Positions 49,058-55,645 of a stretch of DNA of 64,000 nucleotides are shown here, one piece after another (the stretch's first letter is position 1; each line of letters begins with the position of its first letter). The position numbers were made by a program, and so were the translations under genes. The notes below the pieces were generated by a model. It searched no databases, had not been told where the DNA came from, and saw only the letters and a program-made list of their open reading frames with translations. The DNA lies in assembly GCF_030268085.1 (NCBI RefSeq), contig NZ_BSDE01000001.1, forward strand, positions 496,001-560,000, written 5' to 3'. This DNA comes from Geothrix limicola. GTDB taxonomy: Bacteria > Acidobacteriota > Holophagae > Holophagales > Holophagaceae.

Positions 49058-49069
49058 ATGGAGGACAAG

Positions 49070-49195
49070 ATGCCCGATCCCAAATCCGACGCAGCCGAGC
49101 TTCCGGCCAAGGTGGTTCAGAAGATCCAGCCCTCGGGCACGAACGGCGCCGAAGGCGCTAACCCCGAACCCGATGCCTACGGCTGGGGGGTGTGA
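49070..49195 (+). CDS. Unrecognised 41-residue small protein between leuA and leuB
   Basis: The frame starts 12 bases after the leuA stop, with a perfect GGAGG five bases before ATG 49070, and ends two bases before the leuB ATG. The product is hydrophilic and Pro/Ala/Gly/Asn-rich, starting [16 protein letters not shown] and ending PDAYGWGV, with no membrane segment. The spacing, strong ribosome site and in-operon position argue for translation. It may couple leuB translation or encode a small accessory protein. I recognise no family. Confidence 0.6.
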
Positions 49196-49197
49196 GC

Positions 49198-50274
49198 ATG
49201 GACGTCCGCATCACCGTGCTTCCCGGCGACGGCGTCGGTCCCGAGGTCACCGCCGAGGCTGTGGCCTGCCTGAAGTCCGTGGCCGAGCGGTATGGCCACC
49301 GGTTCGAATTCCAGGAGGCGCTCATCGGCGGTGCCGCCGTGGATGCCACTGGCGATCCCTTGCCCGAGGCGACGCTGAAGGCCTGCCAGGGCAGCGATGC
49401 CGTGCTGCTGGGCGCCGTCGGCGGCCCGGCCTGGGACAAGCATCCACGGGACCAGAGGCCCGAGTCGGGCCTGCTGCGCCTGCGGAAGGCTCTGGGTCTC
49501 TACGCCAATCTGCGCCCCGTGAGCGTGCACCCGGCCCTGGAGGATGCCTCGCCGTTGAAGCCCGAGGTGGTGCGTGGGACGGATCTGATGTTCGTGCGCG
49601 AACTGTCGGGGGGCCTCTACTTCGGCGAGCCCCGCTCGTATTCGGATCAGGCGGCCGTAAACACGCTGGCCTACACCCGTGCCGAGGTGGAGCGCGTGGC
49701 CAAGATGGCCTTCGAACTGGCCTCGTCGCGCCGGAAGCGCCTCACGTCCGTCGACAAGGCGAACGTGCTGGAGACGTCGCGGCTCTGGCGCAAGGTCGTG
49801 GATGATCTCGCCCCGGCCTATCCGGATGTCGCCGTGCAGCACGCCTACGTGGACAGCTTCGCCATGTCCCTCATCACGCGGCCTCGCGACTTCGACGTGG
49901 TGCTCACGGAAAACCTCTTCGGCGACATCCTCAGCGACGAGGCTGCCGTGCTCGCGGGTTCCCTCGGCCTGCTGCCTTCGGCGAGCCTGGGCGGCAGCGT
50001 GGGGCTCTACGAGCCCATCCACGGCTCTGCACCCGATATCGCGGGCCAGGATCGCGCCAACCCCATCGGCACGATTCTCTCGGCCGCCATGCTGCTGCGC
50101 CACGGCCTGAATCTCACCGCCGAAGCCGCTGAGCTGGAAGCCGCCGTCGATCAGACGCTGCGCGAAGGGCACGGCACTGGCGATCTGAAGGGCGCCCGCC
50201 AGGCTCACGGCACCCGTTCTCTGGGGGCCTGCGTCCGCGAGCGGCTCGCCGCCGCCGTCACTCCTTCACGATGA
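49198..50274 (+). CDS. leuB: 3-isopropylmalate dehydrogenase
   Basis: Oxidative decarboxylation of 3-isopropylmalate to 2-oxoisocaproate with NAD. The ATG at 49198 has a G run seven bases upstream; a GTG at 49192 overlaps the small-ORF stop. [13 protein letters not shown], the substrate region [20 protein letters not shown] and [22 protein letters not shown] are family marks. [16 protein letters not shown] is the NAD-binding loop. 358 aa is normal. Confidence 0.96.
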
Positions 50275-50306: not shown

Positions 50307-50335
50307 TTGACAGCCTGCGGGCCCACCCCGACACT
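50307..50335 (+). promoter_or_regulatory. Probable promoter of the ilv attenuator and ilvD-ilvC genes
   Basis: TTGACA, a perfect -35 match, is followed after 17 bases by GACACT, a weak -10 (three of six). The predicted start lies near 50342, on top of the leader-peptide ATG, so the leader may be translated without a ribosome-binding site. leuB transcription could also read in from upstream. Confidence 0.45.
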
Positions 50336-50337
50336 CG

Positions 50338-50469
50338 ATGCCTATGAACGCCCCCTCCACCACCATTCAGGCTTCCGCGACCCAGTCGTCGCCGGTCGTC
50401 CGCCTGCTGGTAGGCCTGGTAGCCATCTCCGCCGTCCTGATTATTAGCGGCGAGGTGGGGGCACCCTAG
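50338..50469 (+). CDS. ilv leader peptide of the attenuator
   Basis: An ORF of 43 codons (or 41 from the second ATG at 50344) without homology to any enzyme. Its middle is a dense run of branched-chain residues: VVRLLVGLVAISAVLII, that is six Val, four Leu and three Ile in 17 codons. Codon choice there includes GTA and ATT, otherwise avoided in this high-GC sequence. The reading frame ends inside the 5' arm region of an antiterminator and just before an intrinsic terminator, exactly as in ilvGMEDA/ilvBN leaders. The function is regulatory: the translation rate reports charged tRNA for Val, Leu and Ile. Confidence 0.85.
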   Translation: MPMNAPSTTIQASATQSSPVVRLLVGLVAISAVLIISGEVGAP

Positions 50470-50524
50470 GTTCGGAAGATTCACCGAAACCGGCCCCGCA
50501 CCTCGAAAGATGCGGGGCCTTTTC
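50451..50524 (+). terminator. Attenuator: antiterminator and intrinsic terminator before ilvD
   Basis: The terminator stem is GGCCCCGCA (50492-50500) with TGCGGGGCC (50511-50519), a 10-base loop and then TTTTC. The competing pairing is CGAGGTG and GGGGC (50451-50462, inside the last leader codons) with GCCCC and CACCTCG (50493-50505): 12 pairs with one bulged G. The two cannot coexist. A ribosome stalled early in the Val/Leu/Ile run would leave the antiterminator free; one that reaches the stop codon would cover its 5' arm and let the terminator form. Confidence 0.85.
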
Positions 50525-50577: not shown

Positions 50578-52266
50578 ATGACGGACGCAGGACAACCCCT
50601 CAACCGGAACAGCCGGGTCATCACCCAGGGCGCCCACCGCGCGCCGGCCAGGGCCATGCTGAAGGCCGTCGGATTCACGGACGAGGATCTGGCCAAGCCG
50701 ATCATCGGCATCGCGAACACCTGGATCGAGATCGGTCCTTGCAACTACCACCTGCGCGAGCTGGCGGAGCGTGTGAAGGCGGGCGTGCGCGCCGCGGGCG
50801 GCACACCCATGGAGTTCAACACCGTCTCGATCAGCGACGGCATCACCATGGGCACCGAAGGCATGAAGGCCTCGCTGGTGAGCCGCGAGGTCATCGCGGA
50901 TTCCGTCGAGCTGGTGGCTCGCGGCAACGCCTTTGACGGCCTCGTCTGCCTCTCGGGTTGCGACAAGACCAACCCCGGTGTGGCCATGGCCCTGGCCCGC
51001 CTCGATATCCCCGGCCTGATCCTCTATGGCGGTTCGACAGCGCCTGGCGAATGCGATGGCAAGGACCTCACGGTGCAGGATGTCTTCGAGGCCGTGGGCG
51101 CCCACAGCTCCGGCAAGCTGGACGACGCGGGCCTGAAGGCCGTCGAGGATGCGGCCTGCCCCGGCGCCGGCGCTTGCGGCGGACAGTTCACGGCCAACAC
51201 CATGGCCGCCAGCCTCGAGCTCATCGGCCTCAGCCCCATGGGTTTCAATGGCATCCCCGCGGAAGACCCGCGCAAGGGAGAGGCCGCCGAGACCTGCGGA
51301 CGCCTGGTGATGGACCTGGTGCGGAATGATGTGCGCCCCAGCGCCATCCTGACCCGGGCCGCCTTCGAGAACGCCATCGCCTCGGTGGCCGCCACCGGCG
51401 GCTCCACCAACGCCGTGCTGCACTACCTGGCCCTGGCCCGGGAGGCGGGCGTGCCCCTCAGCATCGATGATTTCGACCAGATCAACTCCCGCACACCGCT
51501 GCTGGCGGATCTCAAACCCGGCGGGCGCTTCACGGCGCCGGATCTCCACGCCGCAGGCGGCATCCGGTTGGTGGCCCAGCGGCTGCTGGAAGGCAAGCGG
51601 CTGCATGGCAGCGCCCTGACGGTCACGGGCCGCAGCCTGGCGGAGGAGTTGGCTTCGGCTCAGGAGACGCCGGGCCAGCAGGTGGTGCGTCCCTTCGCGA
51701 ACCCCATCAAGCCCAGCGGCGGCCTCGTCATCCTGAAGGGCAGCCTGGCTCCCGAGGGCTGCGTCATCAAGGTGGCCGGTCATGAGCGGCTGCACCACAC
51801 GGGCCCGGCCCGCGTCTTCGAAACGGAGGATGACGCCTTCGCCGCCGTGCAGGCGGGCCGCATCGACCCGGGCGACGTGGTGGTGATCCGCTACGAAGGC
51901 CCCAAGGGTGGCCCCGGCATGCGCGAGATGCTGGGCGTGACGGCAGCCCTCATGGGCGCGGGTTTGGGCGATTCGGTGGCGCTGCTCACGGATGGCCGCT
52001 TCTCCGGCGCCACCCGCGGCCTGATGGCGGGCCACGTGGCACCCGAGGCGGCCGTGGGCGGCCCCATCGCGCTGGTGCGGGAGGGTGACACGGTGGTCTT
52101 CGACGTCCCGACGCGAAGGCTCGATCTGAAAGTTTCCGAAGACGAACTGGCGAAACGTCGGGCCGAGTGGAAAGCTCCGGCTCCCCGCTACCGCACGGGC
52201 GTCTTCGCCAAATTCGCCGCGACGGTGACCAGCGCCTCCGAAGGCGCCATCACGGTCGCGCGGTAA
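50578..52266 (+). CDS. ilvD: Dihydroxy-acid dehydratase
   Basis: Iron-sulfur dehydratase giving 2-oxoisovalerate or 3-methyl-2-oxopentanoate. Cluster and active-site regions [10 protein letters not shown] and [16 protein letters not shown] are present, as are [10 protein letters not shown] and [26 protein letters not shown] lies four bases before the ATG. 562 aa is normal. First structural gene after the attenuator; it lies 11 bp upstream of ilvB. Confidence 0.96.
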
Positions 52267-52277
52267 AGGAGGAAAGC

Positions 52278-54002
52278 ATGTCCGAATCAGGCTCCTACAC
52301 CGGCGCACAGCTCATCTGGGAAAGCCTGCTCCGCGAAGGCGTGGACACGGTCTTCGGCTACCCCGGCGGCGCCATCCTGCCGGCCTACGACGCCATGGTG
52401 AGCTACCCCATCCGCCACGTGCTCGTGCGCCACGAGCAGAGCGCCTGTCACATGGCGGACGGCTACGCCCGTGCCAGCGGCCGCGTGGGCGTGGTGGTGG
52501 CGACCTCCGGCCCCGGCGCCACGAACCTCGTCACGGGCCTGGCCACGGCCATGCTGGATTCCACGCCGCTCGTCGCCATCACGGGGCAGGTGGGCTCGGC
52601 CCTGCTGGGCACGGACGCCTTCCAGGAAGTCGATATCACGGGCATCACCATCCCCGTCACCAAGCACAACTACCTGGTGACGCGGGCCGAAGACATCGTC
52701 CCCGCCATCCGCGAGGCTTTCGCCGTGGCTCGCAGCGGCCGTCCCGGCCCGGTGCTGGTGGATATCACGAAGGATGCCCAGCAGTCCCGCGCGGCGCTGG
52801 ATTGGGAGGCGGCCACCCCCCAGCGGCATCGCCGCCACCTGCCGGCGCCGCTGGATCCGGAGGCGCTGGCCCAGGCCCTCGACCTCATCCGCCAGGCCAA
52901 GCGCCCCATCATCCTCGCGGGTCACGGCATCCAGCTGTCGGGCGCCCGTGCCGAAGTGCTCGCCCTCGCCGAACGTGCCGACATCCCCTTCGCGCTCACG
53001 CTGCTGGGCCTGGGCGCCGTGCCCGCCACGCATCCCCTCAGCCTCGGCATGATGGGCATGCACGGCGAATCCTGGGTGAACCGCGCCATCCAGGAGGCGG
53101 ACCTGCTGATCGCCCTCGGCATGCGCTTCGATGACCGCGTCACGGGCAAGCTCAAGGAATACGCGCCCCACGCGAAGAAAATCCACATCGATATCGACGC
53201 CAGCGAGCTGAACAAGAACGTGCCCGTGGACGTGGCCATCGCCGCCGATCTGGGCGACGTGCTGCGGACCCTGCTGCCCCAGCTACCCGTGGCGGACCGC
53301 TCCGGCTGGCTGGAGACCATTCGCGAATGGCGCGGCGATTCCGCCGTGCGCGACATCAAGAACCTGCCGGACGACGGTCACCTCTACGCGGCGCATGTCA
53401 TGCATGACCTGTGGCGCCTCACGAAGGGCGAGGCCGTGGTGGTGACGGACGTGGGCCAGCACCAGATGTGGGAGGCCCAATACTACAAGCACGACGGCGA
53501 ACGCAGCCTCATCACCAGCGGCGGCGCGGGCACCATGGGCTTTGCGCTGCCCGCGGCCATCGGCGCCAAGGTGGCCCGGCCCGATGCGGAAGTCTGGGTG
53601 GTGGCGGGGGACGGCGGCTTCCAGATGACCTTCGCCGAACTGATGACCGCCGTGCAGGAGGGCGTGAAGGTCAACATCGCCGTCATCAACAACGGCTACC
53701 TCGGCATGGTCCGCCAGTGGCAGGCCATGTTCTACGAGGGGCGCTACGCCGCCACGCCCATCCTCTCGCCGGATTTCGTGAAGCTGGCGGAGGCCTTCGG
53801 TGTCCAGGGCCAGCGGGTGGAATGCCGCGGTGACCTGGCCGCGGCCGTCGCCAAGGCCCGCGCTTTCGAAGGGGCCGCCCTCATCGAGTTCAAGGTCGAG
53901 CAGGAGGATAGCGTCTATCCCATGGTGCCGGCGGGCGCGGCGCTCCACGAAATGATCCGGCGGCCCAGCGCTTTGGCCGAAACCGGTTCCGATCCCGTTT
54001 GA
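52278..54002 (+). CDS. ilvB: Acetolactate synthase large (catalytic) subunit
   Basis: TPP/FAD enzyme forming acetolactate or acetohydroxybutyrate. The start at 52278 has AAAGGAGG close upstream; longer frames are rejected. The catalytic Glu lies in VRHEQSACHMADGYA. The TPP motif is VVAGDGGFQMTFAELMTA with INNGYLGMVRQWQ. GYPGGAILPAYDAM is the typical start. 574 aa. It is followed by ilvN after 11 bp; together they form the feedback-regulated holoenzyme. Confidence 0.96.
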   Translation: MSESGSYTGAQLIWESLLREGVDTVFGYPGGAILPAYDAMVSYPIRHVLVRHEQSACHMADGYARASGRVGVVVATSGPGATNLVTGLATAMLDSTPLVAITGQVGSALLGTDAFQEVDITGITIPVTKHNYLVTRAEDIVPAIREAFAVARSGRPGPVLVDITKDAQQSRAALDWEAATPQRHRRHLPAPLDPEALAQALDLIRQAKRPIILAGHGIQLSGARAEVLALAERADIPFALTLLGLGAVPATHPLSLGMMGMHGESWVNRAIQEADLLIALGMRFDDRVTGKLKEYAPHAKKIHIDIDASELNKNVPVDVAIAADLGDVLRTLLPQLPVADRSGWLETIREWRGDSAVRDIKNLPDDGHLYAAHVMHDLWRLTKGEAVVVTDVGQHQMWEAQYYKHDGERSLITSGGAGTMGFALPAAIGAKVARPDAEVWVVAGDGGFQMTFAELMTAVQEGVKVNIAVINNGYLGMVRQWQAMFYEGRYAATPILSPDFVKLAEAFGVQGQRVECRGDLAAAVAKARAFEGAALIEFKVEQEDSVYPMVPAGAALHEMIRRPSALAETGSDPV

Positions 54003-54013
54003 AAGGAGGTTCC

Positions 54014-54589
54014 ATGACACACGCTCCCGGGCAACAAGTTCCAGGGCCCCACGTCCTCGTCGTCTACACCGATGACGAACCAGGCGTCCTCACCCGCGTG
54101 GCCTCGCTGATCCGGCGCCGCGGCTTCAACATCCACTCGCTGACCGTCGGCCCCACCGAGCGGGCGGGCCTCTCCCGCATGACCATCGTGGTGGATTCGG
54201 ACGCGCAGCGCGTGCGCCAGGCGGTCGAGCACCTGCGCAAGCTCGTGAATGTGCTCGAGGTCGAGCAGCTCGCGGACAAGCCCATGGTGGTCCGCGACCT
54301 GGTGCTGCTGCGCGTGGCCACGGCGTCCGCGGTGCGCTCCGAAGTGCTGCAGCTGGCCCAGGTGTTCCGGGCCGCGGTGGTCGATATCGCCGAAGACAGC
54401 GTCGTCATCGAGTGCACGGGCAGCCTCGCCAAGATCGATGCGCTGGTGGATTCCATGCGCCCCTTCGGGATTCTCGAAATGGGCCGCACGGGCGCCGTGG
54501 CCATGGCCCGCGGTACCCGCACCCTCACGAAAGCGCGCCCGGCCCTGCCGCTGCGCACGGGCACCAGTCCCGAAGCCATGTCCGTCTAG
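54014..54589 (+). CDS. ilvN: Acetolactate synthase small (regulatory) subunit
   Basis: The ATG at 54014 follows a strong AAAGGAGG. The N-terminal ACT domain (YTDDEPGVLTRVASLIRRRG, FNIHSLTVGPTE) binds valine, and a second ferredoxin-like region (VLLRVATASAVRSEVLQLA) follows. 191 aa, longer than the E. coli IlvN (about 96) and like the IlvH/IlvN long form. The C-terminal 25 residues are basic and Pro-rich. Confidence 0.93.
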   Translation: MTHAPGQQVPGPHVLVVYTDDEPGVLTRVASLIRRRGFNIHSLTVGPTERAGLSRMTIVVDSDAQRVRQAVEHLRKLVNVLEVEQLADKPMVVRDLVLLRVATASAVRSEVLQLAQVFRAAVVDIAEDSVVIECTGSLAKIDALVDSMRPFGILEMGRTGAVAMARGTRTLTKARPALPLRTGTSPEAMSV

Positions 54590-54628
54590 ATCGTTCACCC
54601 TTCCACCTTTCACCCCACAGGAGCCACC

Positions 54629-55645
54629 ATGGCCACCATCCACTACGAAGCCGATCTCGGTCTCATCCGCGCCCGCAAGGTCGCCATCCTGGGCTACGGT
54701 TCCCAGGGCCACGCCCATGCCCTCAACCTCCGCGACAGCGGCGTCCACGTGCGCGTGGGCCTGCACGCCGGATCTGCCTCCAAGGCCAAGGCCGAGGCCC
54801 AGGGTTTGACGGTCACCAGCCCCGCCGAAGCGGCGGCCTGGGCCGACGTCATCATGGTGCTGACGCCCGACACCGGCCAGGCGGCCCTCTACCAGGAAGC
54901 CATCGCGCCCCATCTGACCCCTGGCAAGACGCTGATGTTCGCCCACGGCTTCAACATCCGATACGGCTGCATCGAACCCCCCGCGGGCGTGGACGTGAGC
55001 CTGGTGGCGCCCAAGAGCCCCGGCCACCGCGTGCGCGAGGTGTTCGTGGAAGGCGGCGGCACGCCGGCGCTTGTGGCCGTCCACCAGGACGCCAGCGGCC
55101 AGGCCCTGGCCTTGGCGCTCTCCTATGCCGCAGCCCTAGGCCTCACTCGGGCAGGCGTCCTGGAGACAACCTTTTCGGAGGAAACTGAAACCGATCTCTT
55201 CGGAGAGAAGGCCGTGCTTTGCGGTGGTGCCAGCGCGCTGGTGAAGGCCGGCTTCGAAACGCTGGTCGAAGCGGGCTACCAGCCCGAGATCGCCTACTTC
55301 GAGTGCCTGCACGAGCTGAAGCTCATCGTGGACCTGATGTACCGCGGCGGCCTCAGCTTCATGCGCTACAGCGTGAGCGACACGGCCGAGTACGGCGACT
55401 ACACCGGCGGCCCCCGCCTGGTGACCGAGCAGACCAAGGCCGAGATGAAGGAGATCCTCAAGGAGATCCAGGACGGCCGTTATGCCACGGCCTGGATCGA
55501 GGAGAACCGCACGGGCCGCCAGTGGTTCGAGGCCCAGCGCGCGGCCGATCACGATCACCCCATCGAGCAGGTGGGTCGGAAACTTCGCGGCATGATGCCC
55601 TTCCTGGATCCCGTCGAGGCTCCGGCTCCCGCTGTGAAGGCGTGA
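54629..55645 (+). CDS. ilvC: Ketol-acid reductoisomerase
   Basis: Isomerises and reduces acetolactate to dihydroxyisovalerate. The dinucleotide motif [17 protein letters not shown] and a cofactor loop [15 protein letters not shown] suggest NADPH preference, with Ser residues where NADPH enzymes bind phosphate. Metal ligands lie in [19 protein letters not shown]. 338 aa is the short class I form. A 39-bp gap after ilvN holds a weak ribosome site (CAGGAG). Last gene of the operon, followed by a strong terminator. Confidence 0.96.

Follow-up and report, generated by a model that had tools for sequence, protein, structure and literature searches.

A conserved, predicted ribosome-mediated transcription attenuator upstream of ilvDBNC in Geothrix limicola and related Holophagae

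In the stretch of Geothrix limicola DNA analyzed here (the window, 64 kb), leuB ends at 50274 and ilvD starts at 50578, and the gap between the two genes holds a short open reading frame (ORF) followed by a hairpin region. This arrangement raises the question of whether the gap controls ilvD and the genes behind it and, if so, in what manner. A preliminary description of the same DNA proposed that an attenuator of ilvD and the following genes splits one leu-ilv operon. The first part of this proposal is well supported by the conserved leader and its competing pairings, one compensated base change, and the geometry of the ribosome on the leader; judging from the sequence and from folding models, the element very probably attenuates transcription through a translating ribosome and has a promoter of its own. 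The splitting of one operon is the weaker part, given the conserved promoter-like element located ahead of the leader. The names assigned earlier to leuA, leuB, ilvD, ilvB, ilvN, and ilvC agree with the NCBIfam models, and the gene order is conserved in the Geothrix loci compared. The features are collected in Table 1.

Table 1. Positions in the window of the predicted attenuator and of the genes around it
Feature	Position	Strand	Basis or detail
leuA, leuB	upstream of leader	+	NCBIfam models
leuD, leuC, LysR-type regulator	near the element	-	neighbouring genes
Promoter-like element, TTGACA-N17-GACACT	50307-50335	+	conserved spacing to leader ATG in relatives
Putative leader peptide ORF	50344-50469	+	41 codons; MNAPSTTIQASATQSSPVVRLLVGLVAISAVLIISGEVGAP*; stop codon at 50467
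Control codons of leader	50395-50445	+	Val/Leu/Ile run
Rare control codons GTA (50410, 50419) and ATT-ATT (50440-50445)	50410-50445	+	codon usage of window genes
Small upstream hairpin, 50430-50434 with 50448-50452; possible pause hairpin	50430-50452	+	leader fold; weak
Antiterminator 5' arm (arm 1), within final leader codons	50451-50462	+	folding, duplex energies, pair counts
Shared arm, antiterminator 3' arm overlapping terminator 5' arm	50493-50505	+	folding, duplex energies, pair counts
Predicted intrinsic terminator stem, 9 bp, 50492-50500 with 50511-50519	50492-50519	+	folding; 97% of cells paired in 11 sequences
Short T run after terminator, TTTTC	50520-50523	+	sequence
ilvD, first gene under predicted control	50578-52266	+	NCBIfam TIGR00110, above cutoff
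ilvB, ilvN, ilvC, rest of putatively controlled unit	52278-55645	+	NCBIfam TIGR00118, TIGR00119, TIGR00465

Two in-frame ATG codons, at 50338 and 50344, could open the leader. The former, taken as the start in the preliminary description, proved slightly off and was dropped because relatives keep only the latter. The run VVRLLVGLVAISAVLII is rich in codons for branched-chain amino acids (BCAA), as had been reported, with valine, leucine, or isoleucine at 12 of 17 positions rather than at 13. Elsewhere in the six frames of the window this density is reached by a single segment, a 356-residue stop-to-stop stretch that is not a leader, and no segment attains it in 20 dinucleotide shuffles of the 64 kb. 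The codon usage of ten window genes, in which ATT accounts for 3.7% of the Ile codons and GTA for 1.3% of the Val codons, bears out the view that the leader contains rare codons; it uses ATT for three of four Ile codons (p about 2e-4) and GTA for two of six Val codons (p about 3e-3). The start, stop, and length of the leader are the same in eight Geothrix relatives, and the ORF of a ninth is 12 nt (4 codons) longer. The BCAA run is also conserved among these relatives, and ATTATTAGC is conserved in most Geothrix copies and in the genus g20. A Pfam search with five of the leader peptides gave no match. The pN/pS of the leader is about 0.9, a value at which the ratio is uninformative, so that conservation of the peptide is no proof of leader translation and the ratio was dropped as evidence of coding. 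As read from the sequence, the ORF has the form of an attenuator leader, in that it is short and would carry a stretch of codons for the amino acids that the operon serves to make.

The 12-pair antiterminator proposed earlier, with its 5' arm in the last leader codons, is borne out by folding and duplex energies; G50498 is bulged and the energy is about -26 kcal/mol. The terminator, for which a T run had been described, does have a 9-bp GC stem (about -20 kcal/mol) between the leader and the first gene, but its tail contains four T only. A simple terminator scan requiring five T missed it, and TTTTC-like tails are found on other intrinsic terminators of the same genome (L091 and L092). Both pairings use the shared arm and are mutually exclusive, as the preliminary description held, with the precision that the outer stem of the terminator takes 50492-50500. 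Among 500 dinucleotide shuffles of 50446-50524, the antiterminator energy was matched in one, the terminator energy in none, and both in none. The only focal candidate for a protector (1:2) hairpin is the weak upstream hairpin, which just touches arm 1 and is mostly not exclusive with the antiterminator; in L050, a CCTCGT/ACGAGG pairing lies over arm 1.

The end of the leader, the shared arm, and the terminator are conserved among relatives. In a MAFFT alignment of 11 sequences, from which L057, L059, and L062 were left out since their arms align poorly, standard pairs fill 93.5% of the antiterminator cells and 97% of the terminator cells, and the paired cells fall to 28-59% when the partners are slid. 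The arms pair with a mean energy of -23.5 kcal/mol in their native combination, compared to -20.3 kcal/mol when swapped between genera. Most pairs are invariant. One clear triple compensation is present in L049 and L050, two loci of one genus, where a C-to-A change in the shared arm is matched by G-to-T changes in its two partners, the antiterminator 5' arm and the terminator 3' arm, probably a single event in two related genomes, and changes of the terminator closing pair are also seen. In the covariation that had been suggested as a check, the terminator exceeds shuffles, but the antiterminator is not clearly beyond them. On this comparison of sequences, relatives keep the mutually exclusive antiterminator and terminator pairings.

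Copies with a focal-like leader and a promoter-like element are referred to here as type B, and those with a different leader as type A. In type B copies, a TTGAC(A/T) -35 sequence ends 28-31 nt before the leader ATG, the spacer is 16-17 nt, and a -10-like hexamer lies 6-9 nt ahead of the ATG (12 loci in 3 genera). The latter distance is 8 nt in nine of nine Geothrix copies listed, where two copies scripted at 9 nt are counted as 8 nt on account of an AAAACT also carried at that distance. The Geothrix hexamer has the form (G/A)ANACT, and the focal one is poor (3/6). No Shine-Dalgarno sequence fits before the leader ATG in these copies. The fixed promoter-to-ATG layout, together with this absence, corresponds to the layout of a leaderless mRNA, from which the leader is probably translated. 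The promoter-like element is a probable start element of the ilvDBNC transcript, with initiation near 50342-50344, and its position 8 nt before the leader ATG suggests that ilvDBNC is most likely transcribed as a separate unit, to which readthrough from leuAB may be a second input.

In the proposed mechanism, transcription would begin at or beside the leader ATG, and a ribosome initiating on the leaderless 5' end would trail the RNA polymerase. As long as Val-, Leu-, and Ile-tRNAs are charged, the ribosome would arrive at the stop codon and cover arm 1; with arm 1 covered, no antiterminator would form, the terminator hairpin would fold, and transcription would end near 50523. If one of these tRNAs is short, the ribosome would stall in 50395-50442 and leave arm 1 free, and the antiterminator would capture the shared arm on its exit from the polymerase, so that ilvD, ilvB, ilvN, and ilvC would be transcribed. 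Equilibrium folding of the full-length leader always gave the terminator, regardless of the ribosome, and was replaced as non-discriminating by a model in which the leader is masked to 12 nt past the start of the A-site codon and the downstream RNA is folded at growing exposed lengths. With stalls at GTC50434, CTG50437, or ATT50440, the antiterminator probability is 1.0 up to the exposure of 50514, and for stalls at 50434 and 50437 up to 50517. A ribosome at the stop codon brings the probability down to 0, and the terminator forms. RNA free of ribosomes gives 0.98 up to 50511, from which the simple model predicts that untranslated RNA would read through. In the folding model, stalled and finished ribosomes would therefore select different structures. 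Since the terminator wins thermodynamically at full length, the choice would be made during transcription, with the antiterminator acting kinetically.

Searched against 93 genomes of the class, a covariance model built from 11 of the element sequences matches 25, of which a few of the lowest-scoring are due to chance. In about 25 Holophagae genomes, spread over several genera, a related element lies ahead of ilvD, ilvB, or a probable ilvE, and in a search of 396 phylum genomes nearly all model matches fell within this class. Matches outside the training set include L069, upstream of ilvB (E 2e-20); L085, upstream of a probable ilvE that was read by eye as a branched-chain aminotransferase gene (2.5e-7); L078, L081, and L083, before a gene read by eye as LysR-type; and L084, L088, and L089. 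Such matches have their own BCAA-rich leaders, e.g., one ending in VLALSNLSVVVIIDHGAGAI*. The matches L086, L090, L091, L092, L094, and L095 were discarded because they look like tRNA, coding DNA, or plain terminators; that of L086 is a chance match on a tRNA. In other genera of the family, L060 and L062 are of type B with longer valine runs, and the L060 leader ends in ISGEVGAP as in the focal one. In the second family of the class, L045, L047, and L048 carry two BCAA-rich leaders in series before ilvD, each with its own terminator (e.g., MTLHHIVVIIVVVIISLSS*, then a second leader of 50 residues), and L049 and L050 carry one leader. A weak match in another family, L093, combines a leader-like ORF containing VLGLLVIDVLVL with a following gene that reads as ilvD. 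In a scan upstream of ilvD across many phyla, a few Verrucomicrobia and Acidobacteria had a leader-like ORF together with a terminator, suggesting that the principle is wider than the focal sequence. As separate observations, L119, L128, and L136 (Verrucomicrobia, Opitutia-type) show a BCAA-rich ORF and a terminator before ilvD with a conserved ALI(A/V)LITVVLA-like stretch, and L049 and L050 have a long 5' region between the TTGACA element and the BCAA ORF with a common CATACTATCG-like motif.

Within Geothrix, the arrangements vary. Type B is the sole attenuator in the focal genome, in which a search with the covariance model R1 found no second copy, and in G020 and G029. Type A is the sole attenuator in 11 Geothrix genomes; it lies directly after leuB, often ends in ...LVLRLTG or similar, and in no case has the promoter-like element of the type B layout, and several type A leaders have AGGA-like sequences upstream. 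Type A followed by type B is found in tandem before ilvD in six genomes and before ilvB in G007 (loci L038-L042, L056, and L069), where type A is again promoterless and type B has the promoter-like element. In the IlvD tree the genomes with both cluster in a single group with support, and the distribution of the arrangements agrees with the branching. A tentative and rather doubtful reading is that in this clade every transcript entering ilvDBNC meets its own attenuator: leuAB readthrough would meet the promoterless type A with its ribosome-binding site, and transcripts from the ilv promoter would meet the leaderless type B, translatable only from that promoter; relatives would have both steps in tandem, and several lineages, the focal one among them, would have lost one or the other. 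If true, this would be promoter-specific attenuation. In many genomes of the same genus (G001, G009, G019, and others), some nearly complete, no close ilvD of the focal type was found; they may use other IlvD or lack the pathway.

These comparisons bear on whether the attenuator has a promoter at all, as it could be purely internal to a leuAB-ilvDBNC transcript, the reading of the preliminary description. Only 69 bp separate leuB from the leader, no terminator lies between them, and in 11 Geothrix genomes the promoterless type A attenuator is placed directly after leuB. However, type B copies, in other genera as well, place the -35 and -10-like sequences at a fixed distance from the ATG, and a leader devoid of a Shine-Dalgarno sequence would be translated poorly, if at all, on a transcript that reads through from leuAB, which makes an internal attenuator unlikely.

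An attenuator with its own promoter also has to be weighed against readings in which the ORF or the antiterminator is given another part. It is very unlikely that an ordinary terminator after leuB is combined with a promoter and the ORF is incidental: similar GC hairpins do end other genes of the genome (L091, L092), but here the terminator follows the promoter-like element and immediately precedes ilvD, the BCAA-rich ORF and the competing arm are conserved in several genera while the flanks are not, and the shuffles give the combination a small chance probability. The hydrophobic stretch and the start and length conserved in Geothrix could instead point to a functional small membrane peptide. 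The pN/pS value, an N-terminus that is free to vary, the lack of a Pfam match, and the retention in other genera of only BCAA richness and the RNA arm render this highly improbable. Just as improbable is a riboswitch-like leader that binds a metabolite or protein and uses the same terminator. The inner hairpin at 50470-50491, conserved in Geothrix, could belong to such a leader, yet no conserved aptamer-like core exists across genera outside the arms, and no Rfam family fits. In the window, Rfam gave no match at the gathering score and nothing credible at E up to 5, the best weak match being Thr_leader with 16 bits versus the 55 needed; the element belongs to none of the known Rfam amino-acid leader families (Leu, Thr, His, Trp, and Phe leaders).

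Leader-peptide attenuators of ilv genes are classical, and in E. coli trp a protector hairpin is used, in contrast to the focal element, for which the model predicts readthrough when no ribosome is present. The ilvGMEDA and ilvBN attenuators of E. coli share with it a BCAA-rich leader, an exclusive antiterminator and terminator, and the control of ilv genes, which we infer for the focal element; they differ in sequence and phylum, and the focal element has no clear 1:2 protector hairpin, probably has a leaderless start, and is outside the Rfam and Pfam models. The preliminary description regarded such attenuation as best known from Enterobacteria, whereas the kind is also known outside them (PMC1262725, PMC11857589). 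In Corynebacterium glutamicum ilvBNC, IlvL is translated in the absence of a ribosome binding site, its transcript beginning 1 nt from the start codon, and the system resembles the focal element in its BCAA codons, ilv genes, and probable leaderless leader; IlvL is, however, the 15-residue MTIIRLVVVTARRLP, its three-hairpin model has H1 shield initiation, and the sequences are unrelated (PMC11857589). The actinobacterial ilvB leaders are likewise short ORFs with Ile/Val/Leu codon runs and terminators, but their codon runs and the terminator overlap, and how they act was unclear (PMC1262725).

The tandem arrangement of relatives, which may be promoter-specific, is less usual than the focal element. 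The tandem attenuators of Salmonella mgtCBR, termed a singular example, resemble those of the Geothrix relatives and of L045, L047, and L048 in having a pair of leader ORFs with two successive attenuation steps; the signals sensed by mgtCBR are ATP and proline, whereas the Holophagae tandem leaders are both BCAA-rich and the focal genome has only one (PMC3641672). Leader-peptide attenuation has long been reported in Proteobacteria and Actinobacteria and later in Firmicutes, and Naville and Gautheret left almost all of their predicted Acidobacteria attenuators without an assigned function (PMC2965389). A literature search covering few subscription journals found no description of attenuation in Acidobacteria or Geothrix. 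The mechanism is a known one that has hardly been described before in Acidobacteriota, and the present element adds a specific example that is conserved in Holophagae, with named genes and a covariance model that works. The closely related species, some of them cultured, range naturally from single to tandem arrangements, a series in which the gain or loss of an attenuation step is testable.

A further small ORF lies between leuA and leuB at 49058-49195, starting from ATG 49058 or 49070 and encoding up to 45 aa. It occupies the same place in the seven Geothrix relatives examined, where its C-terminus, D-x-Y-(G/L)-W-G-V*, is conserved and the remainder is variable.
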